DNA from: a virus
Direction: 5' to 3' (one strand)
Virus record (IMG/VR): IMGVR_UViG_3300006921_004083
Location: 1 to 64,000 of that record
Length of the DNA stretch: 64,000 nt
The position numbers and the translations under genes were made by a program. A model generated the notes under the pieces. That model searched no databases, had not been told where the DNA came from, and saw only the letters and a list, made by a program, of their open reading frames with translations. Below, piece by piece: positions 9,784-60,883 of the stretch (positions are counted from its first letter, which is position 1; each line of letters opens with the position of its first letter).

Positions 9784-9784
9784 T

Positions 9785-10411: not shown

Positions 10412-10414
10412 ATT

Positions 10415-11113: not shown

Positions 11114-11125
11114 TTTACAAATATA

Positions 11126-12319: not shown

Positions 12320-12430
12320 AATTATATTTTTATCTAATAATAATAAACAAATAAAATAATTAAATCAAATAAACTACATATATTAAAATACTTAGTGAGG
12401 TAAATATATTTATCTATATAAACAAAATAC
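12320..12430. promoter_or_regulatory. Divergent AT-rich intergenic region
   Basis: This 111 bp region separates the minus-strand sugar operon from the plus-strand adhesion genes, so it must hold promoters in both directions. On the plus strand a TATTTATC at 12,407-12,414 matches the recurrent TATTTATA motif, 16 bases before the ATG. On the minus side I see only AT-rich sequence with no confident promoter. Confidence 0.55.
12407..12414 (+). promoter_or_regulatory. TATTTATA-type promoter motif (TATTTATC variant)
   Basis: One-base variant of the recurrent motif, 16 bases before the start codon at 12,431. A similar 16-17 base gap is seen at 24,304, 26,819 and 58,886. Confidence 0.45.
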
Positions 12431-15760: not shown

Positions 15761-15772
15761 CAAATTATAAAG

Positions 15773-15780
15773 TATTTATA
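15773..15780 (+). promoter_or_regulatory. TATTTATA promoter motif
   Basis: Exact TATTTATA only three bases before the ATG at 15,784. If it acts like the -7 box of Bacteroidetes promoters, the transcript would start at or next to the ATG and be leaderless. Confidence 0.55.
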
Positions 15781-15783
15781 TAC

Positions 15784-16185
15784 ATGGACTTTTACATTAG
15801 AAAAAACTCAACTGAACCAATCCTTAAGATGAAGGTTATACAAGATGGAAGAAATGACTTTCAAAATTTTCATGATCAATTGGCAAATTCATCAATAAAG
15901 TTTTCTATGAGAGATGTTACTACTGGTATTTATAAGATACTAAATCGTTCTGGTAGTATTGTTTCTGTACAAAATTTAGATGAAACAGCACCTATTGAGT
16001 ATTACATTTATTATAGATGGAGGGAGGTGGACACAAATAAACCTGGTAGATATCAGGGAGAATTTAGTATTTATCTAAATGATGACTGTGCGGAACTAAT
16101 AGTTCCAATTAGAGATGAATTATATATAAACATAAGCGACAGTTTTGCACGAAGTAATTGTGCTAACTGCGTATCAAATACATAA
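15784..16185 (+). CDS. Small beta-rich virion protein resembling BppU N-terminal domains
   Basis: This 133-residue protein starts MDFYIRKNSTEPILKMKVIQ. It contains an IKFSMRDVTTGIYKI segment and a later YRWREVDTNKPGRYQGEF stretch. That layout resembles the immunoglobulin-like N-terminal domain of phage upper baseplate proteins (BppU type), which links fibers to the baseplate. Three Cys residues lie near the C-terminus. It sits between two large adhesion genes, 11 bp before the beta-roll fiber, which suits an attachment or adaptor protein. The similarity is from motif memory, not a search. Confidence 0.5.
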   Translation: MDFYIRKNSTEPILKMKVIQDGRNDFQNFHDQLANSSIKFSMRDVTTGIYKILNRSGSIVSVQNLDETAPIEYYIYYRWREVDTNKPGRYQGEFSIYLNDDCAELIVPIRDELYINISDSFARSNCANCVSNT

Positions 16186-16196
16186 AAGAAGAATTA

Positions 16197-35850: not shown

Positions 35851-38800
35851 ATGGCAAACCAAGTTCCATTATCACCAGGGGTATATACTTCAGAAAGAGA
35901 GTTAACCGCAAATAACGCAGCTATAGGGGCAACAACTTTAGGTACTGTAGGAGAAACTACACAAGGACCAGCATTTGAACCTATATTCATTACAAGTTAT
36001 GATACGTATAAAACTTACTTTGGAGGGTTAAATAAAACAACTTTCCCTGGTACAAATATACCACAATACGAACAATCATATATTGCTAAAACTTATTTAA
36101 GTGAGGCAAATTCATATTACGCTGAACGTATTTTAGGGTATTCTGGATATGACGCTGGTACAGCTTGGAATATAACACTTAGTTATGTTCCTAACTATAA
36201 TAATGTATTTAGGTCTTTTGGGGGTGGAGCTCTTAATGGACTTTATGGATCAGTAAACTACAACCAACTAGGAGGTTTTGGTATACCAGGACTAGACTCA
36301 ACAGGGGCCGTAGGTTCAGCAACAATTGATAATGGGAACGGTACAATTTATACGGCACCAGCAGGTGGTCAACCAGGTTTATATAGTGGAGGTACTTGGG
36401 GGTATAATTTTACTTCGGATGGAGAATCTGCCATAAACGGTGTACAATACACCAACGCTGACGCAGCTGACATTGTGGAGGCAACAGGAAAGAAACTTGC
36501 GGTTATATTCTCATCAACAACTAAAGGATCAGGTGGAAAACTAGTGGTAACGGGTAGTACAGGTGGACAATACTTTGATTCGTCAGGATTACCTCACGTA
36601 TCGGAATTAACAACAACAGCTTATCCGTTATGTTTACTAAGTGGTGAAACTTTTGTTATTTCTACAAACACAACAGCTGGGGGTACAAACCCACTACTTA
36701 ATAATACATCATTTGAAACACCAAGAGTTGCGGAACAAACGAATGCTACGACATACAATTCAATTAGATGGAATCCTGCTATTTCGCGACAGGATAATGG
36801 GAGTACCTTTTCTAATCTCGAACCTTCTAATCTATTTCACGCGGGGACTGGGACTAGAGAAATGAACCCATTAGGTTATCCGGCTACAGGATACACATTC
36901 CAACTAAACTGGAGAAAGGGAAATTATATAGGTGCTCACACAGGAGGGACTCAAGGATGGACAGCACAAACATCAGGTACAGTATTTACCTGGACAGCGG
37001 CAACACAAGAAATGGTTGTTGCTAAATTAAGAAGTAGAGGTAGTTATTCACTTAATACATTTAGTAGAGACGTGGGTGATAGTACTGGAGGTTCAGCAGG
37101 GGTAACATTACAAAATTCACCTTCGTTTGGTGATGGTCCAGGACCGTGTCCCGAAATGGCAGCACCGCCACTATCTCCAGATTGTACCGCAAAGGAGTTT
37201 AGATCAATAAACACAACTAATTATAAACAAAACTTTTATGTTTCAGGATTTACTGCGGCAGGAGCACAATTTAGTTACCAAACAAATCTAGATACCTCTT
37301 CCCAAAATTATTTAACGAAAGTATTTGGAGTGGATCCTTTTGATAAAACACAACCAATGTGGGTGGAAGAGATATATCCAAACAGTTTGAATAACTTAGC
37401 AGCTTCAGCTCTCACATTTAGTAATATCAGTATTGGTCAAGAATCAACTTTTGATAACTACAGTGAAGATTGGCAACCTTTAGCGGCAACAAAAGGACCA
37501 GAAACTCCTTTTATAATGTCAGAAATAAGAGGTAATAAAATATTCAAACTTTTCAAAGCTATTCTTGTGGCGGACGGAAACAACGCAAATGACATGGTTA
37601 AAATATCCATACAAAATATTCAAAAAGACACCAAAAGTTTTTCTCTAGTAGTTAGAGATATAAACGATACTGATACAAATCAAATAATTTATGAGAGTTT
37701 CCAAAATTGTACAATGAATCCTGGAAGTCAAAATTATATTGGTACGAAAGTTGGTACAGAAAATGGGGATTATCCTTTAAGGAGTAGATATATTATGTTA
37801 GAGATCGATGAAGATGCACCAATAGACGCACTTCCAGCAGGTTTCCGAGGATACCCAATTAGAGATTATAGTGGGGCGACACTAGATGACCAGATTTTCC
37901 AAGACCCACCATCTTCTGCAGAGTTAAATGGTGGAAACAGTATAACTAATACGGGAGCCATTTCTGGTTGGCCAGACAGTGTTGCACCTAAACCATTTTA
38001 TAATTTAGTTTACGATACATTAAATGATAATGTAAAAAGAACTTATTTAGGTTGGTCAAGTAAAAAAGGATTTGATAAAGCATTCTTTATTTATAAAGGA
38101 TTGGAGGGAACAAACCCAACCTCACCATATATGTGTGACCCAAATGGTACAGCATGGACTGGTAAAACACCAGGATTCCATTTCGATAATAGAGTTTCCG
38201 GTCTAACACAAACAGATGTATACCAATATGATGTAGGGGCTTACAACTTCAATCCAAGTGGTAACACCTCATTACAAACACAAAATTATTATAATGATAG
38301 TGACTATCTTAAATTTACTGTTATACCTTATGGAGGTAATGATGGTTGGGATAGGTATAGAAAAACTAGAACATATGGTGACACATATATCGTAAACCAA
38401 ACTAATTATGCTACATTCTGGTATAATAACACTATCACTTCCTCATGTTTAGTAACTGATTATTATCCTTATTATGATGGTATTAGAAAATACGCTAATC
38501 CAGAAAGTATTGATATTAGTCTATTTGGTACACCAGGTATCGATTACACTAATAATTTAACATTGGTTAATAGGGCACTTGAAATGATTGAGAATGATAG
38601 GGCTGACGCACTTTATGTAGTTAACTCACCAAACCCAGCCAATCAAACAGTTGATTCGGCAGTAGATAATTTAAGTAATGCAGCAATAGCAAGTAGTTAT
38701 ATGGCAACTTATTGGCCTTGGGTTAGATATAAGGACACTGAAAATAACGTAAGACTCTATCTTCCACCAACAGGTGAAGTGTTTAGAGCTATGGCGTTAA

Positions 38801-39321
38801 CAGATAATATTTCATTCCCATGGTTTGCACCAGCTGGACAAACTAGAGGATTATTAAACACAATAGATAAGGCACAAACTAAACTTACACAAATTAATAG
38901 AGACGATCTTTATATAGGTAAAATAAATCCTATAGCGACTTTTAATGGAGTCGGGGTAGTAATATGGGGACAAAAAACATTAAAAAGTACTGTATCAGCT
39001 TTAGATAGAATAAACGTAAGAAGATTAATGATTTACTTAAAAAAGAAAGTACAATCTGTGGCTATACAATTATTATTTGAACAAAACGATGATATTGTTA
39101 GACAACAATTCCTTTCCTTAATAAATCCGATTTTAGAAGATGTGAGAAGAGACAGAGGTCTAACCGAATTCAAAGTACAACTAAATAGTGACGCTAATGA
39201 ACTAGACACAAATTCGATGACAGGTAAAATATTTGTAAAACCAACTAGAACTTTAGAGTTTATTGAAGTTGAATTTAATATTACCCCTTCTTCCGTATCA
39301 TTTAACGATATAACTCAGTAA
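35851..39321 (+). CDS. 18: Tail sheath protein paralog, T4 gp18 family (second copy)
   Basis: This 1,156-residue protein is collinear with the preceding sheath gene. It shares the SPGVYTSERELT start, the NGDYPLRSRYIM segment, TPGIDYTNNLTLVN, and the C-terminal ALDRINVRRLM and PILEDVRRDRGL. It carries about 250 extra residues between about 112 and 385, rich in Gly, Asn and Ser, at a place where the first copy is short. The extra part probably projects from the sheath surface. Two full-length paralogs suggest a mixed sheath, segmental sheath or specialised end ring. Confidence 0.9.
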   Translation: MANQVPLSPGVYTSERELTANNAAIGATTLGTVGETTQGPAFEPIFITSYDTYKTYFGGLNKTTFPGTNIPQYEQSYIAKTYLSEANSYYAERILGYSGYDAGTAWNITLSYVPNYNNVFRSFGGGALNGLYGSVNYNQLGGFGIPGLDSTGAVGSATIDNGNGTIYTAPAGGQPGLYSGGTWGYNFTSDGESAINGVQYTNADAADIVEATGKKLAVIFSSTTKGSGGKLVVTGSTGGQYFDSSGLPHVSELTTTAYPLCLLSGETFVISTNTTAGGTNPLLNNTSFETPRVAEQTNATTYNSIRWNPAISRQDNGSTFSNLEPSNLFHAGTGTREMNPLGYPATGYTFQLNWRKGNYIGAHTGGTQGWTAQTSGTVFTWTAATQEMVVAKLRSRGSYSLNTFSRDVGDSTGGSAGVTLQNSPSFGDGPGPCPEMAAPPLSPDCTAKEFRSINTTNYKQNFYVSGFTAAGAQFSYQTNLDTSSQNYLTKVFGVDPFDKTQPMWVEEIYPNSLNNLAASALTFSNISIGQESTFDNYSEDWQPLAATKGPETPFIMSEIRGNKIFKLFKAILVADGNNANDMVKISIQNIQKDTKSFSLVVRDINDTDTNQIIYESFQNCTMNPGSQNYIGTKVGTENGDYPLRSRYIMLEIDEDAPIDALPAGFRGYPIRDYSGATLDDQIFQDPPSSAELNGGNSITNTGAISGWPDSVAPKPFYNLVYDTLNDNVKRTYLGWSSKKGFDKAFFIYKGLEGTNPTSPYMCDPNGTAWTGKTPGFHFDNRVSGLTQTDVYQYDVGAYNFNPSGNTSLQTQNYYNDSDYLKFTVIPYGGNDGWDRYRKTRTYGDTYIVNQTNYATFWYNNTITSSCLVTDYYPYYDGIRKYANPESIDISLFGTPGIDYTNNLTLVNRALEMIENDRADALYVVNSPNPANQTVDSAVDNLSNAAIASSYMATYWPWVRYKDTENNVRLYLPPTGEVFRAMALTDNISFPWFAPAGQTRGLLNTIDKAQTKLTQINRDDLYIGKINPIATFNGVGVVIWGQKTLKSTVSALDRINVRRLMIYLKKKVQSVAIQLLFEQNDDIVRQQFLSLINPILEDVRRDRGLTEFKVQLNSDANELDTNSMTGKIFVKPTRTLEFIEVEFNITPSSVSFNDITQ

Positions 39322-45966: not shown

Positions 45967-48900
45967 ATGTCACTGAATATAGATAATACAATAATAAATG
46001 GAGTACCACAAGCTACAACCACTCAGGAATTGAGGGAATGGCTCCTATCACGTAATTTACCAAACGTGATAACTGAGGCTGGATTCCAACAAAATATTGA
46101 AATGTATCAGGAATCTTCTTTATTATTTGAAGAAGAAAATACTAACATCCTACAACAATTAATAGCAGGTAATGAATATTTTAACACCGGTGTTTTATAT
46201 GATGATGGATTATTAAATACCGGCCAACAAGAATTTAATATATACGGGATAAATAATACTGGTACGTTAAATTTAGATAGTGTAACCAACACATTAGGGA
46301 CACCTATGCCACACATACAATGTGATTTTCCCGAATATATATTCCCAGTACAATCGAGTAAATTATGTGAAATAAATTTATACACTTACGAAGCTGTCTA
46401 CACTGCTGAAGACGGACAAGGTGCCGATTTTTTCGATAATGTAACAAGTAATGGGGATACTGTTGGAGATATAGTACAACCAGGAAGATTTGGTAAACTT
46501 CCTCAGTTTATGATGGGAAGTTTTGATAATAGGTATGGTGCCTTAATTAATTACCCAAGTGATACAGCATCGCTAGTAATGAAAACCCAAGCACAAAACC
46601 CATCAAATAACCCATATTCGTGGTTTATGAGTAATCCTATAATGTATGATTTATTTATTTCTCCTAATTTTGAGGGTAACTTTATGAGATTTGATGCGAC
46701 CACACTGGAACTATCCCCACTAGATAATAGATTTTATGGATTAAAAATAAGTGAAAGAGGATTTCAATTTAATAACGCCACGGCCCCAGATGGTTCTGGA
46801 GTTAAAACCTTTTATACTCCACTACAACCTTATAATGATGGGGTTACCGACAGCGCACCACCAATACTACTTCAAAATACTAGAATATTAGAACAATGGT
46901 TATTGGGTTCGTTTGGTACTAGAACCACTCGAGACTTACTACTTAATAGAAATTTATTTTCTTCAGGAGACATGTATATTGGTGGGAGTCCTAATGTACC
47001 AGCAATTGATTATGTAGAAGGTACTGTTGGTTTGAATAATTCTTATTATAGTTTAGCGTGGGCTCTCTCAGGACCACGTAAACCAAAAACTAATACTAAC
47101 TATTTTGTACAACAGTTAAGAATAAGTGATCTTTTAGGAATAAATAATGATTATGAATTTGGTATTAACAGAGGTTTAGTACAAGAAATTAGACAAGGTA
47201 AAAATAAATCAGAAGAATCCCAAGTAAGATGGACCCCAGAAACGGGACCAGAAGATACTATTGTTAATAGTTTACTTTCACCAGTTGGTGACAAAGGATT
47301 ATTAAATTTTACACAAAAACTTGTTAATACAGCGGCGGTTAACGGAGAGGATTTATCTATTGGTGATAATATAAGACAAGACACAAGATACTTAAAAACT
47401 AAAAATGGAACAATTAGTAGAGGTTCTGGTATATGGAACTATAGAAATGACGGACAAAAACCTTATGCTAGGAGTTGGGTAAGACCCTCCAATGTCTACT
47501 CTCCAGAATCAGGTAATGAAAACCCAGAATCCTACTCCCGATATGATGCCCTTCTAAGACATAGACCATTGGTAATGTCAACAACAGGAGATACCTTTGG
47601 TATGAGAGGAGGTTGGAGTAATGGAGCAAGTGTTATAAATGATGTAAGTGGCGCGCACATAGCACAAAGTTCTAAAGATGATATTAGAAATTTTATGTTT
47701 TCTTTAGAAAATTTAGCTTGGAAGGATAATGTAGATGGGGTTTTAGCTAAACATGAAATAGGACCAAACGGAGGAAGATTGATGTGGTTCCCTCCTTACA
47801 TAGAAAGTTGGACGGAGAACTCAAACGCTAATTATAACCAAACTGATATAATTGGTAGAATTGAACCTATATGGACTTATAAAAATTCAGTTAGACAAGC
47901 AAATCTAAACTTTATGATGGTCACAGATTATCCAGAGGTAATAGATACAATGAACTTTACTGAAAATTCTGACATGGAGGCGGCACAATTCTTTGGAGGA
48001 CAAGATTTTGAAAAACACATTGGACAGATAGCGGCAGGAAAACCACCAACATTTGCTAATCCAGAAGAGTACCAAAATTTATTAGCGGCAGTAGTTGCAC
48101 CAGAACCAGTAAATAATAACCCATTACCTGAAGGGTTCCAAGTACCAACAGAAACCGGACCAGCAGACTCAACACCACTACAAGTATTTTATTATAGTGG
48201 ATGTACCGAAATAGGGAGTGTTGTGTGGGATACATCAAATTCAGATGCGGAGGAGGTTTATAGTGCCACCCAACCAGTCGACACAAACGCGGGACAGTTC
48301 TTCGACACTCAATTTAATGCAGTATCAGGAGGTGAGGCGGAACCTTTTGTTAACACTAATGGACAAACACAATTTGGAGCTGAAATTAATTTTGAGTCTT
48401 TAGGACAATTTCTAGCCAGTGAAGATGGGAAACAATATAAAGTAGTTATAACAACTTATAACGCTCCCGTATTCGAATTAAAGGCAGAAAACCAAGTAAT
48501 AGAAGATATTGCAGACTCAATGGACCCCTCACAAGGATCTATGTTGGTAGAATATTATGCCGACCAATCATATGAGGCTCAAGAGATTTTCGCCAAAGAC
48601 AGAAATACTTGTGCTCCTTTAAGGGCCGAAAATCTTAAAGCTAAACTAACAAATACAATATTATATTATGAACAAGGTAATCCAGTGGTAACCCCGGAGG
48701 TACCACCAGCAACAGACCAATACATAGATGAATGGTATAGTGATCAAGATCCACCTGAAGGTAGGTGGGAGATTAGAGATGGTGGGAGAGTACCTGGAGC
48801 GGGTGAGTTATTACGTGGTCCATTTATAGAAATAGAGCCAGACACTTCATACGCACCAGGACAATATGAGATGGGACCAATAATACCTGTATTACCAGTA

Positions 48901-50289
48901 ACTATTAGTATTGAAGTAAACCCAGAATTAATGTCCATAACGGCAGTTGAGGAGGCAGAAGAAGAATATACAAGAAGATTAACAGAAACTCATAATGATT
49001 ATGTACAAAATAATTTAAGAATTCCAGATGGTGATTATTTTGAAAAACTTAAAGAAACCGATCTTTTTGCTTACCAAACATACAAAGATAAAGTTAAAAA
49101 CTTTCATCCAGCATTTCACTCAGTGCATCCATGTGGATTCAACTCCAGAATGACATTCTTAAACCAATGTCTAAGACCTGGTCCATCCATAAATTCTACG
49201 GTAGGTCCTAATAATATGGCATTTGGTAGACCACCAATATCAGTTCTTAGGTTAGGAGATTTCTATCATTGTAAAGTCGTTATTAATAATATTGACTTCA
49301 GTTATGAACAACCTTTTTGGGATCTTAATCCTGAAGGTATTGGGGCACAACCTTGGATTGTTAGGGTTTCTATGCAAATGTTTATTGTAGGTGGTATGTC
49401 TTTATCTGGACCACTATCACAACTACAAAATGCGGTTTCGTTTAATTATTTTGCTAATACAGAAATTTGTGAACCAGATAGGGCGAACCCTACTAAATAT
49501 ATGACAACTACAACTACCACCACAGAAGAAATAACGGATGATGAAATAACTATTACCAATACTCAAATTGTTAATACTGGTACGACTTATAACTATGATG
49601 GAGATAGTGGTGGTGGTGACGGTGGAGGAGGGTATGATTATTCCGGTGATAGTGGTGATTATGACTATTCAGGTGACAGTGGAGGAGGTTCAGATGAAGT
49701 TCCAACAACAGTCCAATACTACAAATTCCAAGATTCTCAATTAGTACACGCTCTTTTTGAAAATATATGGGATAATACTGATTGGGCAGGAGGGACTAGA
49801 TTTTTTCAGACAGGGGCTGAAGTATCTTTAGGTAGAGTGACTGACGCGTCAGTTACACCAGGGGTTTGGAAACTTAGTTATACAATAAAACCAGACTCAA
49901 TAATGGTTAATAATCAAGCCAGACAGTTAAGTGATTCACAAACTCATCATATGCCTTTAATAACAGATACCGAAGGATGTATGGAACATTATTTGACGGG
50001 TGGGTGTGCCGCACTCGATGCAAGTATGAAATTATTGAATCAAGAAGTAACAAATCATTATATAGAAGTATTCGATAAATACAAAAAGGCAACACCAGCA
50101 GGGTATTGGAATAACCCAACAGCCTACGACACTCCACCGACCGACTACGCACAGGTTGTAATAGAGTATTGTTCTTCGGCGGACGGAAGTCTTTTTGCGA
50201 ATCAAAATATTGCGTTGTGTAAAAATTCATACGGAGGAGCTGAAGCTATCTATAATGCTAATGACTCAGTAATACATTCAAACCATTAA
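45967..50289 (+). CDS. Large tail/baseplate protein, unknown, with conserved marine-phage segments
   Basis: This 1,440-residue protein contains two segments that recur in tail proteins of T4-like environmental phages. One is ESWTENSNANYNQTDIIGRIEP with NSVRQANLNFMM (about 618-660). The other is GRPPISVLRLGDFYHCKV (about 1,091-1,108) with SLSGPLSQLQNAVSFNYFAN near 1,140-1,160. A tract rich in Asp, Gly and Tyr (about 1,210-1,240) looks like a flexible linker before a short C-terminal domain. Position between tape measure and gp53/hub genes suggests a baseplate role. Precise T4 counterpart is not identified. Confidence 0.55.
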   Translation: MSLNIDNTIINGVPQATTTQELREWLLSRNLPNVITEAGFQQNIEMYQESSLLFEEENTNILQQLIAGNEYFNTGVLYDDGLLNTGQQEFNIYGINNTGTLNLDSVTNTLGTPMPHIQCDFPEYIFPVQSSKLCEINLYTYEAVYTAEDGQGADFFDNVTSNGDTVGDIVQPGRFGKLPQFMMGSFDNRYGALINYPSDTASLVMKTQAQNPSNNPYSWFMSNPIMYDLFISPNFEGNFMRFDATTLELSPLDNRFYGLKISERGFQFNNATAPDGSGVKTFYTPLQPYNDGVTDSAPPILLQNTRILEQWLLGSFGTRTTRDLLLNRNLFSSGDMYIGGSPNVPAIDYVEGTVGLNNSYYSLAWALSGPRKPKTNTNYFVQQLRISDLLGINNDYEFGINRGLVQEIRQGKNKSEESQVRWTPETGPEDTIVNSLLSPVGDKGLLNFTQKLVNTAAVNGEDLSIGDNIRQDTRYLKTKNGTISRGSGIWNYRNDGQKPYARSWVRPSNVYSPESGNENPESYSRYDALLRHRPLVMSTTGDTFGMRGGWSNGASVINDVSGAHIAQSSKDDIRNFMFSLENLAWKDNVDGVLAKHEIGPNGGRLMWFPPYIESWTENSNANYNQTDIIGRIEPIWTYKNSVRQANLNFMMVTDYPEVIDTMNFTENSDMEAAQFFGGQDFEKHIGQIAAGKPPTFANPEEYQNLLAAVVAPEPVNNNPLPEGFQVPTETGPADSTPLQVFYYSGCTEIGSVVWDTSNSDAEEVYSATQPVDTNAGQFFDTQFNAVSGGEAEPFVNTNGQTQFGAEINFESLGQFLASEDGKQYKVVITTYNAPVFELKAENQVIEDIADSMDPSQGSMLVEYYADQSYEAQEIFAKDRNTCAPLRAENLKAKLTNTILYYEQGNPVVTPEVPPATDQYIDEWYSDQDPPEGRWEIRDGGRVPGAGELLRGPFIEIEPDTSYAPGQYEMGPIIPVLPVTISIEVNPELMSITAVEEAEEEYTRRLTETHNDYVQNNLRIPDGDYFEKLKETDLFAYQTYKDKVKNFHPAFHSVHPCGFNSRMTFLNQCLRPGPSINSTVGPNNMAFGRPPISVLRLGDFYHCKVVINNIDFSYEQPFWDLNPEGIGAQPWIVRVSMQMFIVGGMSLSGPLSQLQNAVSFNYFANTEICEPDRANPTKYMTTTTTTTEEITDDEITITNTQIVNTGTTYNYDGDSGGGDGGGGYDYSGDSGDYDYSGDSGGGSDEVPTTVQYYKFQDSQLVHALFENIWDNTDWAGGTRFFQTGAEVSLGRVTDASVTPGVWKLSYTIKPDSIMVNNQARQLSDSQTHHMPLITDTEGCMEHYLTGGCAALDASMKLLNQEVTNHYIEVFDKYKKATPAGYWNNPTAYDTPPTDYAQVVIEYCSSADGSLFANQNIALCKNSYGGAEAIYNANDSVIHSNH

Positions 50290-50301: not shown

Positions 50302-50622
50302 ATGAGCGTATATTACAATAGATATTATAAAATGACAAACCAAGGGGGGTACCCTAAGATGATGCCTTTTATTTCATTAAATGAAAAAAACAGTGACAAA
50401 TTTGAAGTTTATAAAAAGGGAGTAACAAGATTCGATAAGCTAAGTCAAAAATATTATGGTAATCCTTTTCATGGTTGGTTAATAATGTTAGCCAACCCAA
50501 CGTACGGAGGACTAGAGTTCGTTATAAAAGAAGGAGAGATTATTAGAATACCCTTTCCCTTCAAAGACACTTTACAAGAGTATGAAGATGCAGTAAATAC
50601 ACACATTAGATTAAATGGTTAA
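50302..50622 (+). CDS. 53: Baseplate wedge protein, T4 gp53-like (LysM-like fold)
   Basis: This 106-residue protein resembles the LysM-like N-terminal part of T4 gp53. It has a YKKGVTRFDKLSQKYYGNP stretch (about 37-55), then WLIMLANPTYGG and an IKEGEIIRIPFP segment. gp53 clamps baseplate wedges to each other around the hub. T4 gp53 is 196 residues, so this is a short form. It is two bases before the giant hub gene, consistent with joint expression. Confidence 0.65.
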   Translation: MSVYYNRYYKMTNQGGYPKMMPFISLNEKNSDKFEVYKKGVTRFDKLSQKYYGNPFHGWLIMLANPTYGGLEFVIKEGEIIRIPFPFKDTLQEYEDAVNTHIRLNG

Positions 50623-50624
50623 TT

Positions 50625-53600
50625 ATGGGGATAAAAATAGTAGATCCAAATAAAGTTATAAGTGAATATATTAGTGACTACCAAAGTGGTCAACCTTTTC
50701 CTACTAACATAGGAGAGGGCCCTGTCACTACACCCCCAGAAGATTTAGTTACGTATGTAGACCTAGAAGTTTTTTTACCGGGTAGGTCTATTATAGTAGA
50801 CGATGTTGCAAGACAACAACAAAGAAAAGAAAACATAGGTTTTGTTGTACCTAAAAATTTACCAAAAGAAAATTATGGAAAATTAGGGACTTCTTGGACA
50901 AATATCGGAGGACTCCAGGGATTTCAAAAAAATGACGACGGGGCGTACACAGTTGATGGAAGTGGAAGTTTTCAAAAACAAGGGTCCTTTAATGAAACTT
51001 TCGGGATACAGGATATTCAAATAAAACTTAACTCCTCTTTTGAGCCTCAAGTTTTTATAACTTTTGTGGATATTAGAGGGGCTTCATTAATGGAACCAGG
51101 ACTCCAATCCCCCTACGCCGCCTTTTTCCACATGCCATATCCTTTATTCACTCTTACTATTAAAGGTTTTTATGGAAGAGGTATTTCTTATAAATTACAC
51201 TTAATGAAATTTAACTCTAGGTTTGATAACGATACGGGAAATTTTATTATAAAATGTGAATTTATTGGTTTTACTTTTACTTATCTTGCTGATATGCCGG
51301 CAATATATGCGGATGTTGGACCAGATTTATTGGGTTTTTATGGGACCGAAGCTGGGGGAGAACACGAATTTGCTACAAATTTTGAGAGTGGTAGAGACCC
51401 TAGAAAACCATGGCCAGAAGGTAGTATGACATTAGGGGTTTATATAAATAATATTGCCACTTTAGCCGCAAAAATGGATCATTTTGAAGATGATTCAGTA
51501 TCTACTGATTATTACTTACTTACAGACAGTCTTGATAGATTAAGAAATATAGAATTAAGGTGGGGTGGAATCGCTAGTGATGTTAATTGTACCGACGCGG
51601 CATCAGCAGGTTGTGGATACGTATTCTCAACCAGTATGGTTATAACAGCAAAAGAGTTATATACCGACACTGGGGCACTCGTGTCTATAGATGAAGCAAA
51701 AGTCTTTAGGAATGTTAATAATGCAGATAATTATCGACAACTTTTATTACAATTAAGGGGTACAGACAAAAATAACGCAGATACTACTTTAACTAATAAC
51801 TCTATTGAGGACGCAAACTTTATCGGATACGTTAATAGTATATATGACAGTATTGACGAGGTGTCTATCGGGTACTTGGGCACTCCCCCATCCACAGCTC
51901 TAATAAATCAAGGAGATGAAAATTACGAGGTTTATGGTACGGTATCTAAGTGTCCAGATTGTACAACGGAAGATATAAGTGAGGGGAGATATGGTATTGG
52001 ACAAATAGATGCGGAAGAATATTTTAAGAAATTAAGAGCGTATATAACCAAGGGAGAGCAACAAGAGAAAGAACTAAAAACAAAAATGAATATTCAAGAA
52101 AATGAATTAAAACTTGACACTCTTGTTATGCCTCCAACTCTTGAAAATGTATTTAAGTTACTATGTAATGGTATTACAGCCTTCCAAAAAGTTTTAGTGG
52201 AGGTGGGGACATTGGCATATACCCAACACAATAATGACGATAATATAAAAGCACTATTATTAAATAATGGTGGTTCAGATATAAAAAGTTTACAAGACGC
52301 CAATTCCGAAATGTATGCCTTTCCTCTATATTATGAAACAAGAAGTGATTCTTTACCTAGTGGGGTAACTGGAAAAATTGAAAAAGTAAGTAGGGTAACA
52401 AAACAGTTCCCAGGTTGGAAAGTAAATAAAACAACTTATGGAAGGCCAGAGTTTATAGTACCAAAAAAATGGCCAGAGATAACTCTAGTAGAACAACTAA
52501 TACGATTCATAATTAAAAAACAAAGAGAACTAAAACAATCTTGGGATCCTGGATCTGCAGAATTCAAAGACGGATATATTCCAGCAATTGTTGAGGAAAC
52601 CCCATTGTTACCTATTAGTCCATATCTAAGACTTACCGATGTAAAAAAACAAATCATACCTCTTTTAATGATTAGGACGATGATGAGATTAGGACATACT
52701 AATAATTTCCCCGTACCTAACCAAACAACAGACTATCCTGGGTTTGGTAGTGAGGACGCAACCACTATATCTATTCTTAAAGAGGCCCTTAAAAATGATA
52801 GTGCCACAAAAACTCTTAGTAGTGATAATGGAGGGTACGATGCGTTGGAAGCACTTGGCCAACTAGAGGCAGAAACTCTATTAACAGGAGTATTAGACAC
52901 TGGTAAAAAAAGACTAAAAGAGATACTGTCAACTCTAACTAATGAGGCATCGATGAATACTCAAAAAGGAAAAGGAAAAAAAGCTACGGAAACAGCAATT
53001 AAGTTATTAAAAGAAGCTGGTTACGGAATTGAGTCAAAAACAGTAGGAGAATATACATTTGTAGGATTCCAAGGGGCTAAAGACCCATTAAATGATGTTA
53101 TTACTTACCATAGTGTTATTGGACTTATAGGACAAGCAGTAGAAAATAAATATGAATATTGGTTACCTAATATAGACACAAAATTAAGCTCCAATATATT
53201 TTATGATACATGTAGTGATGCGGATTATGCAATGGAGTGTAAAGGTTTTTATATTTCATCCGTGGCTCATTATAGAACAGAAGGGTCTAGCGACCAACAA
53301 GTAGAAAATTTAGATAATAAACAAAACGAGGAATTAGTAACGGCAGGAGATAAATTAATTGATTGGTATAAAACTTGTTTTGGAGAAGAAGGAGGAACTG
53401 AATCTGAATATAGTAAAGTTGAAAAGTTAGTTATTGGACCACAAGGAACTCTTGATTATGATTATAAATTATGGTTAGGGTGGGATTTCTTTTCATACTG
53501 GTCTAGAACCAAATATACTGAAAAGGTAAACACAGAGAAACAATCTAATAATTTTAGTAGTTCAAACCATATTAAACCAGACCAATTCGCACCCCACGCG

Positions 53601-56600
53601 ATAAGATACTCTAAACCTACTAGAATTACTAACCCCAATCTAAATAATAGACATAATTATAAAGAATGGGGTTGGAATGCGGATAGACAAACTTTTATTA
53701 TAGAAGATTTTTTATGGATTAAAAATGACTGGACTAATGTAACAATTAATAACTATACAGTAAAAGATGATGCGGGAAACTATCAATACATACCTTATAC
53801 TAGAGCAGCTGATTCAAGCGGATACGAAGAGGCTTTGGACGGACAAGGTAGTGGAGTAGTTAATCCAGAAATGGCAAGTAATTTAGCTTTAGGGTACCTT
53901 TATATTAATAATGTTGGAAAGTATTATGCTAGTAGTGCTCATAAAAATTCCACTTCATTCACTAAAAAAAATAATTTAACAAGATTTTTTGACCAATTTG
54001 CTGGGTACTCAGTTCTTCCCGAATATATCGTTTTACAAATAGGTTCGTGGTTATATAGGGAACAAGAAGTTAATGATCTTATTAGGTGGCCTAACTACTT
54101 TAGTAGTACTGGGGCTAAAAAGAATGGACAGTGGACATTTATGATTCCTAAAAAAACAGAAAGACCACAACCATCAGGAGACATGATATCCGTAGAAAAA
54201 AGTGCTAATGGTGGGGATAAAGTAAAAATATGGACGGCTGAATATAGAAGAGTTTATAGAAACGCATTTAAGTTCGATATCACAAATGATACTAATTGGA
54301 TGAGTGCTTCCGATTTTAACAACGCTTTGTGGTTTATTGGAGGACAATGTTCAGATTGGACAAGTGTTAGTGGACAGAAGGTATTTGATAGTTGTAGTGA
54401 AAGTTATGGTTATGACTATATAGGTGACTCTATATTAAACTTAGCCCCTGAAATTAAAAAACAATTTATAGATTCTTTTATAATGTGGGCAACAGGAAGA
54501 CCTTTAGATACTCAAACCTACAATCTTAGTCCTTCTTTTCCAGAAATTAAAAGAGCACTAACCGCAACTGTTAAAGTTAATGATGATTTATGGAACGAAA
54601 GAGGTTTTTGTTACGATATGGCCAATTATTCAGTTGCGGATTGCCAAGGGTGTCAAAGTCCTTCAACACCACCCACACCAAACCTTAGACCTAATTCACG
54701 ACTTTGGACATCTTATTGTGATAGATCTCCTGTCGGTGTATATAATGGTCCAAGTACCTATCCTGGACAAGGAAATGCTGGATGGGGAGTAGATAATAGT
54801 GGATGGCCAGCACCACAATTAGTTGATATGACCCCACCAGCAGCAGTAGGGATAGTGGATAGAGCGGGGCCGATTAGTTCGGGTGCTAAGTTTTTTGATT
54901 TTAATAATGGTATAAGTACACACACAATTGATGCGGTGGTAAATTATTCCCCTAATCCAGATTATCCTTATATGATTAAAAGACCATTTGGTACAGTAAA
55001 TTTTGCCACACGGGAAACTAATATGTCAGCGACTACCGATAATTATGTTAGGAATTTAGTAAATGATAATACACTAGGGGGAAGAAAATATGGAACTTTT
55101 GTACTTCCTTTACTTTATAATGGGTACGTAAATAACCAAAGAAATTTACCAAACGAAAATTTTAATGGTAAAAAAGCAAAAGATGGAAACTATAATGGTT
55201 CGTTTGGGACATATACAGCGCAGATAGATGTGGCAAAACGGATGGTAGAAAATCCAAGATATGACCATTGGCAAGACACAATGTATCAGTCCTTCGCATC
55301 GGCAGGTTTTAATTATTTCTTTTTAAGAAAGGCGAGTCATACAGATAGAATTGTATCATTTAAGGAAGGATCTACAGGACCTCAAGGTAATGCTGGAACC
55401 TGGGATTGGCCCTGCAATAATGCTGGTAATTCAACAGGATGTCCACCACCATCAGAACAATCCCAATTCGTACAAAATGGTAATTGGTACGATAACGATA
55501 GTTATAACGGTTTTCCCGAAGTAGGACAAGAAGTATACCTAAACATACATTATCGTAATCCAATAAGAAGTCAGTGGTATAGTGGTAAAATGGAAGAAAC
55601 GGATAATTTTGATTATGCTGGTATAAACTATGAACTAGACCATCCTTTTTTAATAGAAAACGGTATAGTAGGAGGGCTGAATCCAGGTAACTACGGTAAA
55701 CCTTCATTTTACGTTCCTAAAACACATTATACCCCTAATTACACTGAAGAAGGTCAAGATGATGGAACGCAGAGACCTGGTAATGAAGTACCACAAACTA
55801 ACGAACTATACCAAATGTTAGAAAATTTCATGAAAAATAGAGTGGCAATTAAAAATGTAACATGGAGACAGTGGGTAGGTGTAGGTAGTAAGGATCCTAA
55901 TAAACAAGTTTATGACGATTTTTCTACTATCTTCACAAGTAAAGATTATCTTACTAGATATTTTGATGCACTTATTGTTAAATTAGTTGACTATGTTAAT
56001 GAAGGGGATGTTGTTGATGATATAAAGGCAGTTGCTAAAGAAGAGGATTTATTGGAAGATAATGATATTAAGTTAGACACATACCTTACTCTAAAGAATA
56101 TTCATGATAAATGGTTAACGGGTTCTGCGTCAGAAGGACTGAGAAAAATGAAATTAAATGCTACTTATGATTTTGACCAAGGTAAAGAATCATGGTTGTA
56201 CTCACAATTTAGTTTTGTTGATAGGGCTTATACTGACATTAAACATAAAATAATAGACCCAACCCCATTACTTAATCTTAAAGAAAATCCTAAAATTAGT
56301 TTATATACATTAATATATGATTTAATTGCTCATAATCAATTTGAATTTTTCCCACTACCCACAACAGTAGACTTCTCTAGTAAAAATTTCGAAAAATCTT
56401 TTATTCCTCATTTAACCGTTGATAAAGAAAGTATTGACCAAAATCCTCGATTTTATGTAATGTACATGGGGGGTTTCTCTGATAGTTTAGATATGGACGA
56501 TAAAGGTTATGAATTTGCCAATGATGGATTTGATATAACTGAAGACCCATGTTTGGATTGTCCAGCAGACTTTTATAAAGGAGAAATAACAACAATTGGA

Positions 56601-58460
56601 AACCAACAGAGCTTACCAAATGCTGTTCTACTAATAGAAGGACAAGCAGAAGATGATGGAGGGTTTAGGATAGGAGGAAGTGGAAACGCAATATCGATAC
56701 CCTCTTATGGAAATTGGGTATGTGTTGGTAATGCAGGGGTAGGAGACTGTAAAATACAAAAACAAGAATTAAAGGCTTTTGCGGTTAATTATGCACAAGA
56801 TAATCAAAACTTCTTTAAGTCCATTGCTCTTGACCAAGCAGAATTTCAAGAAACCCAAGAATCCTTATTAGTAATAGATGCTCTATCTCACGAAGAGGGA
56901 ACAACAAAGGATCCTATGCTTAAGGGACAAAACTTATTGAATGTATACCAAAAGAGAAGTTACTCATGTAAGGTAGATGCTTTTGGAATGATGTCCATTT
57001 TACCATTACAGTATTTCCAATTAAATAACGTTCCAATGTTTCATGGGGCTTATATTATAACTAATGTGGAACATTCAGTAACACAAGGAGACGTTAGTAC
57101 AAGTTTTGAAGGTGTAAGAATATCACAATCAGTTATTCCTTATGTTTCTAGTTTCCTAACGGCAATACAAGATGATAGTGTTGAGGTAAGTGAACCTTAT
57201 GACGAAAAACTAGATACTAGAGACTTAAATGTCTTATCTGGTGATGTAGAACGAGTAGGGGTCTGGTTTGAAAGAAATGTAACCAAGAGTAGATTAAAAG
57301 AAATGAAATCCAAAGGGATAAACAGTGTTTCAATAGAACTCGAATCAAGTTGGGCAGAAACCTCAGGAGGTAGTACTAGGTGGCAAAGTTACGATTGGGA
57401 CTGGCAACCATATAGACAATTTCCAAATGGTAAAAAACATAAATGGACTAAAAGAGCTAGATATTCTTTAGATGGATTAAAGGAGGCGATTAAATTATTA
57501 AGTGAAGAAGATATGTATGTAACCATTATGTTATATTTTAATCCTAATTATAATTACATCGAACCAATGTGCGGGGGAAGTGGAGTTCAACCATATGTAA
57601 AAAAAGATTATGCATCAGAAGGTTTAGATACTCCTTTTACACTTCCAGAATTAGTAAATGAATTAAATAACTATTGTACTAAATGTAAGGTAGACGCTGT
57701 TGAATTTGACCTTGAAGGACATTATAGAAAAACTAGATATTCCAGTGGATGGAAAAGTGGTTCTAAACCTTTAGGTTATAACGACGAAGTCAATAAAAAA
57801 GACTTAGCTAAAGCGGTAATGAAAAAATTACGTGATACTCTACCAGGTGGTACAGAAATAGGTACAACCGTATATGTTGGTAGGAGTGTTAGTACAAATG
57901 AAAATTATTGGAAAGACCCCGCAACTCCTGAATATTCTTGTATAGCAGACTATGTGGCGGTCCAAGCTTACACTCACGCCAAATGTAAACCTAAAAAACC
58001 TTGTAAATCTTGTACACAAGATAGTGATTGTGGAAGTGGAGCTTCATGTGTTGACCAAGGAAATGGTAAAGGTAAAAGATGTTATAATGATGATTATAAT
58101 TGGGGAGGTTATGCCGGACCGGGTAAAAGACAAAAATATAGTGGAAACACAATTAAAAAAATATCAGAGTCCAACTTTAATGGTTCGAGTCCTACAGACG
58201 GTAAACCATATTTAATTATGGGACTTGCAGGATACCATCAAAAATTCGCAGACCACACTATATCCGAGGCTTTAGTAGAGGCTTGGAATGGAGGAATCCA
58301 ACCTATAACGAGTAGTAGTTATGGACCAAAAGAAGTAAGATATTGGTCATATGCTAATGTATTTGGGAATAACGGAGGATATGACTGGAGTACACATTCT
58401 GGTCCAGTGGCGGATTTTATACTAGAACAAACCAGTAAAACAGACGATAACGTTACATAA
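50625..58460 (+). CDS. Giant baseplate hub protein with C-terminal GH18-like hydrolase domain
   Basis: At 2,611 residues this is the largest protein in the window. The N-terminal part (about 100-215) has FGIQDIQIKLNSSF and VFITFVDIRGAS, seen in hub proteins of related phages. A hub-like segment MFHGAYIITNVEHSVTQGDV lies near 2,140-2,160. The last 400 residues form a probable TIM barrel. It carries DAVEFDLE at 2,357-2,364, aligned to the GH18 signature DGxDxDxE with Glu2364 as acid, plus later barrel strands VQAYTH and IMGLAGYH. A Cys-rich insert (about 2,454-2,480) interrupts the barrel. It probably cuts a cell-wall or surface polymer at injection, as gp5 lysozyme does in T4. Confidence 0.72.
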   Translation: MGIKIVDPNKVISEYISDYQSGQPFPTNIGEGPVTTPPEDLVTYVDLEVFLPGRSIIVDDVARQQQRKENIGFVVPKNLPKENYGKLGTSWTNIGGLQGFQKNDDGAYTVDGSGSFQKQGSFNETFGIQDIQIKLNSSFEPQVFITFVDIRGASLMEPGLQSPYAAFFHMPYPLFTLTIKGFYGRGISYKLHLMKFNSRFDNDTGNFIIKCEFIGFTFTYLADMPAIYADVGPDLLGFYGTEAGGEHEFATNFESGRDPRKPWPEGSMTLGVYINNIATLAAKMDHFEDDSVSTDYYLLTDSLDRLRNIELRWGGIASDVNCTDAASAGCGYVFSTSMVITAKELYTDTGALVSIDEAKVFRNVNNADNYRQLLLQLRGTDKNNADTTLTNNSIEDANFIGYVNSIYDSIDEVSIGYLGTPPSTALINQGDENYEVYGTVSKCPDCTTEDISEGRYGIGQIDAEEYFKKLRAYITKGEQQEKELKTKMNIQENELKLDTLVMPPTLENVFKLLCNGITAFQKVLVEVGTLAYTQHNNDDNIKALLLNNGGSDIKSLQDANSEMYAFPLYYETRSDSLPSGVTGKIEKVSRVTKQFPGWKVNKTTYGRPEFIVPKKWPEITLVEQLIRFIIKKQRELKQSWDPGSAEFKDGYIPAIVEETPLLPISPYLRLTDVKKQIIPLLMIRTMMRLGHTNNFPVPNQTTDYPGFGSEDATTISILKEALKNDSATKTLSSDNGGYDALEALGQLEAETLLTGVLDTGKKRLKEILSTLTNEASMNTQKGKGKKATETAIKLLKEAGYGIESKTVGEYTFVGFQGAKDPLNDVITYHSVIGLIGQAVENKYEYWLPNIDTKLSSNIFYDTCSDADYAMECKGFYISSVAHYRTEGSSDQQVENLDNKQNEELVTAGDKLIDWYKTCFGEEGGTESEYSKVEKLVIGPQGTLDYDYKLWLGWDFFSYWSRTKYTEKVNTEKQSNNFSSSNHIKPDQFAPHAIRYSKPTRITNPNLNNRHNYKEWGWNADRQTFIIEDFLWIKNDWTNVTINNYTVKDDAGNYQYIPYTRAADSSGYEEALDGQGSGVVNPEMASNLALGYLYINNVGKYYASSAHKNSTSFTKKNNLTRFFDQFAGYSVLPEYIVLQIGSWLYREQEVNDLIRWPNYFSSTGAKKNGQWTFMIPKKTERPQPSGDMISVEKSANGGDKVKIWTAEYRRVYRNAFKFDITNDTNWMSASDFNNALWFIGGQCSDWTSVSGQKVFDSCSESYGYDYIGDSILNLAPEIKKQFIDSFIMWATGRPLDTQTYNLSPSFPEIKRALTATVKVNDDLWNERGFCYDMANYSVADCQGCQSPSTPPTPNLRPNSRLWTSYCDRSPVGVYNGPSTYPGQGNAGWGVDNSGWPAPQLVDMTPPAAVGIVDRAGPISSGAKFFDFNNGISTHTIDAVVNYSPNPDYPYMIKRPFGTVNFATRETNMSATTDNYVRNLVNDNTLGGRKYGTFVLPLLYNGYVNNQRNLPNENFNGKKAKDGNYNGSFGTYTAQIDVAKRMVENPRYDHWQDTMYQSFASAGFNYFFLRKASHTDRIVSFKEGSTGPQGNAGTWDWPCNNAGNSTGCPPPSEQSQFVQNGNWYDNDSYNGFPEVGQEVYLNIHYRNPIRSQWYSGKMEETDNFDYAGINYELDHPFLIENGIVGGLNPGNYGKPSFYVPKTHYTPNYTEEGQDDGTQRPGNEVPQTNELYQMLENFMKNRVAIKNVTWRQWVGVGSKDPNKQVYDDFSTIFTSKDYLTRYFDALIVKLVDYVNEGDVVDDIKAVAKEEDLLEDNDIKLDTYLTLKNIHDKWLTGSASEGLRKMKLNATYDFDQGKESWLYSQFSFVDRAYTDIKHKIIDPTPLLNLKENPKISLYTLIYDLIAHNQFEFFPLPTTVDFSSKNFEKSFIPHLTVDKESIDQNPRFYVMYMGGFSDSLDMDDKGYEFANDGFDITEDPCLDCPADFYKGEITTIGNQQSLPNAVLLIEGQAEDDGGFRIGGSGNAISIPSYGNWVCVGNAGVGDCKIQKQELKAFAVNYAQDNQNFFKSIALDQAEFQETQESLLVIDALSHEEGTTKDPMLKGQNLLNVYQKRSYSCKVDAFGMMSILPLQYFQLNNVPMFHGAYIITNVEHSVTQGDVSTSFEGVRISQSVIPYVSSFLTAIQDDSVEVSEPYDEKLDTRDLNVLSGDVERVGVWFERNVTKSRLKEMKSKGINSVSIELESSWAETSGGSTRWQSYDWDWQPYRQFPNGKKHKWTKRARYSLDGLKEAIKLLSEEDMYVTIMLYFNPNYNYIEPMCGGSGVQPYVKKDYASEGLDTPFTLPELVNELNNYCTKCKVDAVEFDLEGHYRKTRYSSGWKSGSKPLGYNDEVNKKDLAKAVMKKLRDTLPGGTEIGTTVYVGRSVSTNENYWKDPATPEYSCIADYVAVQAYTHAKCKPKKPCKSCTQDSDCGSGASCVDQGNGKGKRCYNDDYNWGGYAGPGKRQKYSGNTIKKISESNFNGSSPTDGKPYLIMGLAGYHQKFADHTISEALVEAWNGGIQPITSSSYGPKEVRYWSYANVFGNNGGYDWSTHSGPVADFILEQTSKTDDNVT

Positions 58461-59116: not shown

Positions 59117-59905
59117 ATGGAAAAAAGTCCCTTACTCAGTGAAGAGTTGAAAAGACACCTAGAAATACTTAATTATAGTGATAAAGTATCTAATGGTGTG
59201 ATAGAAGAAAAGTTCAAAGTAACGTTTCAAGAGCAAGAACCTGAAGCGGAACCTGATGATGAGTTGGATATTCCAGATATGGCAGCGGGTGACACACCCC
59301 CACCACCACCTCCAGTAGGGGGAGAAGCAGGAGGGACAATGCCACCACCACCCCCACCAGTTGGCGGAGGAACGGCAGGGGCAACCCCACCACCACCACC
59401 GACTACACCGACTACACCTCCACCACCACCTCCACCAGCACCAGGAGAACAATCACTAGATGAACCAGAAGAGGAAACAGAGGAAGTGGACGTTACCGAT
59501 TTAGTACTAAAGAATGATGAAATAGGAGATACGGTAGAAAAATTTTCAACACAATTAGTAGATATCGAATCTAAGTTTACCGAACTTTCGACTAAACTAG
59601 ATATGATGGATAGAATATTTGATAAGATAGATAGTTTAGAAGATGAAATTCAGAGTATGGCACCACCAACTCCTGTTGAAAAGATGGAATTAAGGTCACT
59701 AGATAGTTTTCCTTACAACCAACGACTAGACAAGTATTTTGATGAAAAAAAGGCACAATATAAAAGATTGAGAGGAATTGATATGGATATGGATAGTGAA
59801 GAAATACCAAAAGAATACACTCTAACAGTAGGTGACACTGAAAATTGGGACGATAACTCTATTGGAAAATCGTTTAATCCTGACTTTGACGACGAGACCA
59901 ACTAA
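59117..59905 (+). CDS. Unknown protein with polyproline linker and coiled coil
   Basis: This 262-residue protein has a short N-terminal helix, then an acidic stretch and several runs of five to seven Pro residues alternating with Gly/Thr/Ala (about 60-110). A helical coiled-coil region follows (about 128-175, DIESKFTELSTKLDMMDRI) and then a mixed acidic tail. It is the last gene before a terminator. The layout suits a flexible tether or a decoration protein. No family is recognised. Confidence 0.55.
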   Translation: MEKSPLLSEELKRHLEILNYSDKVSNGVIEEKFKVTFQEQEPEAEPDDELDIPDMAAGDTPPPPPPVGGEAGGTMPPPPPPVGGGTAGATPPPPPTTPTTPPPPPPPAPGEQSLDEPEEETEEVDVTDLVLKNDEIGDTVEKFSTQLVDIESKFTELSTKLDMMDRIFDKIDSLEDEIQSMAPPTPVEKMELRSLDSFPYNQRLDKYFDEKKAQYKRLRGIDMDMDSEEIPKEYTLTVGDTENWDDNSIGKSFNPDFDDETN

Positions 59906-59943
59906 GTATATTTGACACTTACAATAAATAATTATAATATTAG

Positions 59944-59970
59944 ACCCAACCCGAATAGAGTTGGGTTTTT
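59944..59970 (+). terminator. Rho-independent terminator at the end of the tail block
   Basis: A 7 bp stem (ACCCAAC with GTTGGGT) with a 9-base loop followed by a run of T, 39 bases after the last tail-block stop. Confidence 0.75.
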
Positions 59971-59977
59971 ATTTATA
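59970..59977 (+). promoter_or_regulatory. TATTTATA motif at the terminator edge
   Basis: Exact motif overlapping the terminator T-tract, 84 bases before gp32; its relevance is doubtful because a second promoter candidate lies nearer the gene. Confidence 0.3.
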
Positions 59978-60008
59978 CAAGCATCTTTACTTTAATAAAA
60001 TTGTTTTG

Positions 60009-60016
60009 TATATTTA
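60009..60016 (+). promoter_or_regulatory. TATATTTA promoter box before gp32
   Basis: TTTTGTATATTTA shares its core with the element before DNA polymerase (TTTTGTATATTTG). It lies 45 bases before the gp32 ATG, which has a long A-rich leader. Suggests a shared early or middle class. Confidence 0.45.
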
Positions 60017-60061
60017 ATGAGTAAAAAAATATTAATTAACTAGTTAAAAAAAAAATTAAAA

Positions 60062-60883
60062 ATGAGTAACGTATTAGATTCAATTCTTAAACAGTATGAG
60101 TCCAACAAGTCTGGAACAGGGACCGAAAAAAAGAAAACAGACCTTAGAAAGTATTTCGCACCTTTTTTACCAAAAGGAGAAACAAGCGGAGAAAGAACAG
60201 TAAGAATTTTACCTCCTGAAGATGGAGCTTCACCATTTACCGAAGCTTGGTTTCATGAGGTACAAATTGATGGTAAGTGGCAAAAACTTTACGATCCAGG
60301 TAAGAATGACAATGAAAGAAGTCCTATTACCGAAGTAAATGAGGCGTTATTAATGACAGGAGACGCAGAAGATAAAGTATTGGCTAGGCAGTATAGACCA
60401 AGAAAGTTTTATGTAGTGAGAGTTATCGATAGAGATAATGAAGCAGACGGAGTAAAGTTTTGGAGATTCAAACACAACTTCAAAGGAGATGGTATTATGG
60501 ATAAATTAATTCCTTTATTTCAAAAGAAAGGAGATATTACCAACCCAAGAGAAGGAAGAGATATTAACCTTATCCTTAAAGCTGTTAAATTACCAAGTGG
60601 TAATGGTACCTACACAACAGTATCTACAATTATGGCTGAAGACCCTTCTATGTTAACAACAGATGCAGAGAAAGCTAAACTTTGGATGGCGAATAAAGAA
60701 ACATATAAAGATGTGTATGTAAGAAAAGATGTAGAGTTTCTTGAAAAAGTGGCGAAAGGTGAAAATCCTTATGAAAGAAAAGAAGAAAGTAGTTCTCCAG
60801 TACAAAAGACCTCGGTCAGTGATACTACTTTGTCAGAACTTGACAAAGGAAGTGAGATTAACATGGATGATATGCCATTTTAA
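60062..60883 (+). CDS. 32: Single-stranded DNA-binding protein, T4 gp32-like
   Basis: This 273-residue protein has a basic N-terminal segment (LDSILKQYESNKSG) that in gp32 mediates cooperativity, a core with LRKYFAPFLPKGE and ERTVRILPPEDG, and an acidic C-terminal tail ending EINMDDMPF that recruits partners. The region equivalent to the zinc-binding loop of T4 gp32 has no Cys in this protein. It coats ssDNA during replication and recombination and lies directly before uvsX. Confidence 0.88.
   Translation: MSNVLDSILKQYESNKSGTGTEKKKTDLRKYFAPFLPKGETSGERTVRILPPEDGASPFTEAWFHEVQIDGKWQKLYDPGKNDNERSPITEVNEALLMTGDAEDKVLARQYRPRKFYVVRVIDRDNEADGVKFWRFKHNFKGDGIMDKLIPLFQKKGDITNPREGRDINLILKAVKLPSGNGTYTTVSTIMAEDPSMLTTDAEKAKLWMANKETYKDVYVRKDVEFLEKVAKGENPYERKEESSSPVQKTSVSDTTLSELDKGSEINMDDMPF

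Follow-up and report, generated by a model that had tools for sequence, protein, structure and literature searches.

Whether a phage crosses the wall of its host is decided by the envelope-cutting enzymes in its virion, and in the literature surveyed these are lysozymes, GH25 and GH23 enzymes and peptidases. The locus described here raises the question of whether a marine phage could carry a different kind of glycosidase, related to GH18, on its baseplate hub. Recognisable GH18 proteins are rare in phages (13 of 50,697 phage records, with two GH18 queries), and a literature search found no description of a GH18 enzyme on a baseplate hub. The window, a stretch of 64 kb belonging to a 123,782-bp virus record, contains one giant gene whose product ends in 412 residues that neither family libraries nor a PDB sequence search could recognise. 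The reading that we favour, with modest confidence, is that these residues form a very divergent GH18-like TIM-barrel glycosidase, fused to the hub, that would digest envelope glycan locally. If true, the envelope-breaching toolkit would gain a new catalytic component in the form of a GH18-like hub enzyme, and there would be a testable account of envelope breach for a marine lineage with a hub that has no match among named phages.

The gene is a single uninterrupted frame encoding 2,611 amino acids and, as the original prediction had it, contains DAVEFDLE, at residues 2357-2364. Close relatives of the C-terminal domain were found in IMG/VR only (L001 at 80%, L002 and L003 at 74%), and in all three the protein ends with the same fused domain. 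Comparison of the domain with these relatives gives a dS of ~1.4 and a dN of 0.13-0.17, so synonymous change far exceeds replacement change and the domain is maintained by purifying selection. No credible match to the whole protein or to the domain was found in Pfam, PHROGs, NCBIfam or PDB chains, and tblastn of either against the 50,697 phage records returned nothing credible. Scans of IMG/VR with the beta6 and beta8 motifs recovered the known relatives plus chance matches in tiny frames and nothing else, and an alignment (A1) run against 20 mixed and 396 Bacteroidota genomes gave weak spurious matches only. Partial matches of the domain to transaldolase and methyltransferase (E 0.035 or worse) were rejected.

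The gene lies among components of a contractile tail, as indicated by two sheath genes in the window. A gp19-like tube gene is present in the record, just below the cut-off, a gp53-like wedge gene lies immediately upstream of the giant frame, and gp25- and gp6-like wedge genes occur further along the record (Table 1). Within the protein, residues 2115-2164 align with the C-terminus of an unannotated 721-aa protein from the uncultured huge phage LR756508 (hhalign E 1.4e-4), and the same stretch shows weak similarity to phrog_52, a "tail protein" (E 0.032). On the basis of this match and the position of the gene, the 2,611-aa protein is likely the baseplate hub. The proposal that the domain is fused to a hub is therefore moderately supported by this segment and by the gp53-like neighbour, although no PDB chain and no curated family names the segment or the protein as a hub. 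Searches with the N-terminus gave no match.

Table 1. Features of the window and of related or neighbouring loci, with the basis for each assignment
Feature	Coordinates	Strand	Basis or remarks
Giant baseplate protein, probable hub with C-terminal GH18-like domain	50625..58460	+	one open frame; architecture common to L001, L003
gp53-like baseplate wedge gene, directly upstream	50302..50622	+	phrog_7145 E 1.4e-6; Pfam gp53 E 0.027, below cut-off
gp27-like hub C-terminal segment (probable), residues 2115-2164	56967..57116	+	hhalign E 1.4e-4; phrog_52
Variable linker between hub and barrel, residues ~2183-2194	57171..57206	+	lowest conservation in alignment A3
Predicted GH18-like TIM-barrel domain, residues 2200-2611	57222..58457	+	hhalign against GH18 profile with controls; dS, dN against relatives
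beta4 motif DAVEFDLE, residues 2357-2364; predicted acid Glu2364, helper Asp2362	57693..57716	+	Glu in register with GH18 catalytic Glu
beta6 ADYVAVQAYTHAK, residues 2441-2453; predicted catalytic-site Tyr2449	57945..57983	+	aligned with GH18 beta6 and hevamine DYVWVQFYN
Six-Cys insert, residues 2454-2486, predicted beta6-alpha6 loop	57984..58082	+	all Cys invariant in relatives
beta7 PYLIMGLAGYHQK, residues 2528-2540	58206..58244	+	53% identity over 15 aa to beta7 of Flavobacterium GH18 protein L086
Predicted beta8 KEVRYWSYANVFG, residues 2569-2581; possible site Trp2574	58329..58367	+	92% invariant
Tandem tail-sheath genes	33024-35825; 35851-39321		933 aa; 1,156 aa
Further giant proteins	window 45967-50289; L006:5403-9233, 9236-14509, 15578-19171; L007:3259-7323
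Tandem small-ORF pair of relatives	L001:4539-5815; L002:3200-4482; L003:8079-9361		window counterpart region 59905-60062
Sigma-70 factor	L008:3831-4631 (G000 107831-108631)		regions 1.2, 2 and 4
NrdJ-type ribonucleotide reductase	L006:823-2736 (G000 64823-66736)
Amidase_2 gene	L008:5872-6501 (G000 109872-110501)

To compare the domain with GH18, proteins of this family were gathered from genomes with PF00704, aligned by MAFFT and matched to the domain by hhalign. The resulting alignment runs from alpha3 to beta6 over 100 columns (score 46, E 1.8e-5, probability 78%), an E-value whose exact figure should not be over-read because the profile mixes diverse GH18 members and its sub-profiles are weaker (chitinase-type E 0.0012, spore-type E 0.017). 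Several profiles and families were compared, and each E-value given here stands for one comparison; larger rebuilt GH18 profiles gave E 4e-5 to 8e-5. In this alignment the catalytic Glu is paired with Glu2364, and the Tyr of GH18 beta6 with Tyr2449. Null comparisons scored at most 22.8 for 148 chunks of the phage itself (with the two barrel-overlapping chunks left out), at most 22.5 for 60 column shuffles, 13 for the reversed alignment and at most 29.5 for 54 unrelated proteins carrying D[AG]xEFDxEG. When the motif was masked the domain scored 29.4 and kept its register, which indicates that the motif is weak alone, yet that its surroundings are not random.

The GH18-like barrel of the original prediction thus stands as a remote homology, with controls passed and Glu2364 at the acid position, but not as strict membership of GH18. 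The curated PF00704 model matches neither the protein in a Pfam scan nor anything in the virus record at E <= 10, beta3 does not carry SxGG, and the GH18 profile also gives a score of 42 with one GHL10 protein, so that a match to this profile is not exclusive to GH18. For these reasons the domain is not to be filed as GH18, and "GH18-like" is a working name. From the profile alignments, the domain nevertheless reads as closest to GH18 among the five families compared, and we consider it quite likely to be a GH18-like barrel. AlphaFold, run on the single domain sequence (mean pLDDT 40.3) or on a four-row alignment with three distinct rows (pLDDT 39.6), predicted beta/alpha alternation with no resolved barrel, both models being too poor to use; a Foldseek search with the four-row model gave no significant match and is given no weight.

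The alternative that survives best keeps a TIM-barrel glycosidase of the superfamily that includes GH18 but assigns it to a different family, either a GHL10-like, a GH5-like or a so far undescribed one, whose chemistry would differ and whose substrate could be, for example, capsule or exopolysaccharide. The GHL10 profile (PF02638) aligns in order with beta1-beta4 over 132 columns (E 0.0029) and the GH5 profile (PF00150) with beta1-beta3 (E 0.0036 to 0.0078), and the GHL10 protein mentioned above comes near the domain's own score against GH18. The scores of these two profiles (30.7 for GHL10, 27-29 for GH5) are, however, clearly below the 46 of GH18, nothing in them is matched past beta4, and the GH18 match covers beta4-beta6, with a beta7 that is GH18-like too; we regard this alternative as unlikely, if worth keeping in mind. 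Together, the GH5, GHL10 and GH18 pieces mean that predicted beta1 to beta7 are matched in order by TIM-barrel glycosidases. The matches to GH5 and GHL10 are partial and N-terminal, and GH25, one of the families named at the outset, was rejected on a best profile alignment of 10 columns (E ~0.07). DUF4015 was also rejected, as its profile, built from four members only, does not align.

The predicted active site of the GH18-like barrel can be followed strand by strand. In beta4, DAVEFDLE agrees with the GH18 pattern DxxDxDxE in having Glu as acid and Asp two residues earlier, with Glu, not Asp, at the second acidic position, and every position is invariant in the relatives except V2359 (V or I). 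Such a motif by itself is no better than chance: a scan for D[AG]xEFDxEG in one genome per species (84,980 species) gave 61 matches, none of them in a recognisable GH18 protein. In beta6, DYVAVQAYT aligns with the GH18 strand that carries the active-site Tyr, and this is also the best local match of hevamine (DYVWVQFYN; the query agrees with PDB 1hvq over all 273 residues) to the domain. The beta7 sequence YLIMGLAGYHQKFAD pairs with KLIMGLPFYGKKFDN in a GH18 protein from Flavobacterium (53% over 15 aa), and Trp2574 in predicted beta8 resembles what we take to be the GH18 beta8 Trp; beta7-beta8 alone gave no significant match to GH18 profiles. The SxGG motif at beta3, present in most but not all GH18-like proteins, is absent here, the strand reading VTIMLYFNPNY. 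Asp2362, Glu2364, Tyr2449 and Trp2574 are invariant in the three relatives.

An intact and invariant catalytic set (Asp2362, Glu2364, Tyr2449 and possibly Trp2574) favours an enzyme over a lectin, and with somewhat less confidence than for the barrel itself we predict that the domain is an active glycosidase. A catalytically dead GH18-like barrel, through which the hub tip would bind surface or wall glycans, has precedents in the chitinase-like lectins and xylanase inhibitors found among GH18 homologues in the PDB, and the Cys knob described below could serve as a binding module, but typical chi-lectins have lost the acid whereas all of Asp2362, Glu2364 and Tyr2449 are kept here, and we find this explanation improbable. 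The idea that the motif arose by chance, in a domain that has some other alpha/beta fold and serves as a structural element of the baseplate, is less probable still. The motif does occur in many unrelated proteins, and neither curated libraries nor AlphaFold recognise a barrel, but the score of 46 compares with at most 29.5 in three types of null, and TIM-barrel glycosidases match in order at beta1-beta4, beta4-beta6 and beta7.

The Cys-rich insert directly follows beta6 (CKPKKPCKSCTQDSDCGSGASCVDQGNGKGKRC), which would place it on the catalytic face, within the beta6-alpha6 loop. It lies between predicted strands beta6 and beta7, as had been proposed, with six Cys at 2454, 2460, 2463, 2469, 2475 and 2486, but extends to residue 2486 and not 2480. 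Cys is ~18-fold enriched here relative to the remaining sequence (binomial P 9e-7 for one sequence window, ~0.002 for all such windows). These six Cys and four others in the domain are invariant in the relatives, while the positions between the insert Cys are 60% invariant versus 92% for beta4, beta6, beta7 and beta8. The Cys spacing resembles that of small disulfide-rich modules, with sub-threshold similarity to the Cys-rich repeat TIGR04201, Dickkopf_N and knottin models; no knottin- or Dickkopf-type module matched above the curated cut-off. Phage Milano offers a precedent for disulfides within a contractile tail and its baseplate (PMC10811340), and a metal-binding knob could also be envisaged. 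A more ambitious version of the hub-enzyme reading, in which the domain represents an undescribed GH18-clade family acting as the contractile-tail hub enzyme of marine Bacteroidota phages, with a disulfide-locked, knottin-like beta6-alpha6 knob as a substrate gate or redox-dependent lock in the virion, seems to us doubtful.

Compared with GH18 (PF00704), the domain shares a beta4 DxxxxDxE with Glu as acid, a beta6 Q/M-x-Tyr and a beta7 LIMGLxxY, but is too divergent for the Pfam model and differs at beta3 and in its insert after beta6. The insertion domain typical of chitinases is placed between beta7 and alpha7. Among tail enzymes, the gp5 lysozyme of T4 sits on the gp27 hub, in the hub complex of a contractile tail, and cuts glycan at entry (PMC3004832). 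The domain is predicted to act likewise, as a glycan-cutting enzyme used at entry from the central hub complex; in T4, however, the fold is an unrelated one, that of a lysozyme inserted in a separate spike protein, whereas here it is the C-terminus of the probable hub itself that carries the GH18-like barrel. That the domain takes the place of the gp5 lysozyme, as first suggested, is plausible, no other tail lysozyme having been seen among the proteins scanned (part of the ORFs), though a separate Amidase_2 gene, the sole other cell-wall enzyme among the ORFs scanned (again a part), is found elsewhere and encodes a probable endolysin. In a jumbo phage that infects Bacillus, a baseplate-associated GH25 enzyme is believed to cut the wall locally at entry (PMC4870245); it also belongs to a TIM-barrel glycosidase family, is a virion component positioned close to the baseplate and acts on the host wall, but it is a separate protein, and the GH25 profile does not match our domain. 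A chitinase is reported as a virion component of phage Basilisk in work cited within PMC4870245, and the likeness lies in an enzyme of that name in a virion, with a Bacillus host that differs. The domain most likely cuts sugars of the host envelope in the course of infection, and the locus would thus combine a known design, an envelope enzyme on the tail hub, with an unusual part, a GH18-like barrel bearing a Cys knob.

The sigma-70 factor of the phage was compared with 25 genomes from several phyla (assigned from record titles), and its ten best matches (213-223 bits) are Bacteroidota or close allies, followed by Chlorobiota (209) and Firmicutes (189). This one gene hints that the host is probably a member of the Bacteroidota; the NrdJ-type ribonucleotide reductase, 68% identical to that of Microcystis phage Mel-JY01, points to a different host group. 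With a Gram-negative (Bacteroidota) envelope, peptidoglycan would be the likeliest substrate, followed by other GlcNAc-containing surface glycans, and we name peptidoglycan only tentatively. Upon contraction, the hub-borne domains, of which there would be three should the hub be a trimer like that of T4, would come into contact with the host envelope and cut a glycan with an N-acetylhexosamine beside the scissile bond, with Glu2364 as acid/base and Asp2362 orienting the N-acetyl group of the substrate, as in GH18. Local cutting of peptidoglycan would then open a hole for DNA entry. The Cys-rich knob, on the active-site face, would probably help to grip or select the substrate, and disulfides may hold it together once the virion is outside the cell.

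Several other features of the region were observed. Both sheath proteins match sheath families in their C-terminal part only, their long N-terminal parts being unrecognised. The baseplate region and its surroundings also encode five more giant proteins (~1,200-1,760 aa) that are almost without recognisable domains. In the relatives, two tandem small ORFs with TLKENI...YEFDY...VMAQEV, which resemble the Peptidase_S74 chaperone motif, separate the 250-aa gene from that of the ssDNA-binding protein; the counterpart region of the window has no such pair. Elsewhere in the 2,611-aa protein, CxxC pairs occur at residues 443-446, 1340-1343 and 1976-1979, possibly as disulfides or metal sites, and the last of these is kept in the relatives.
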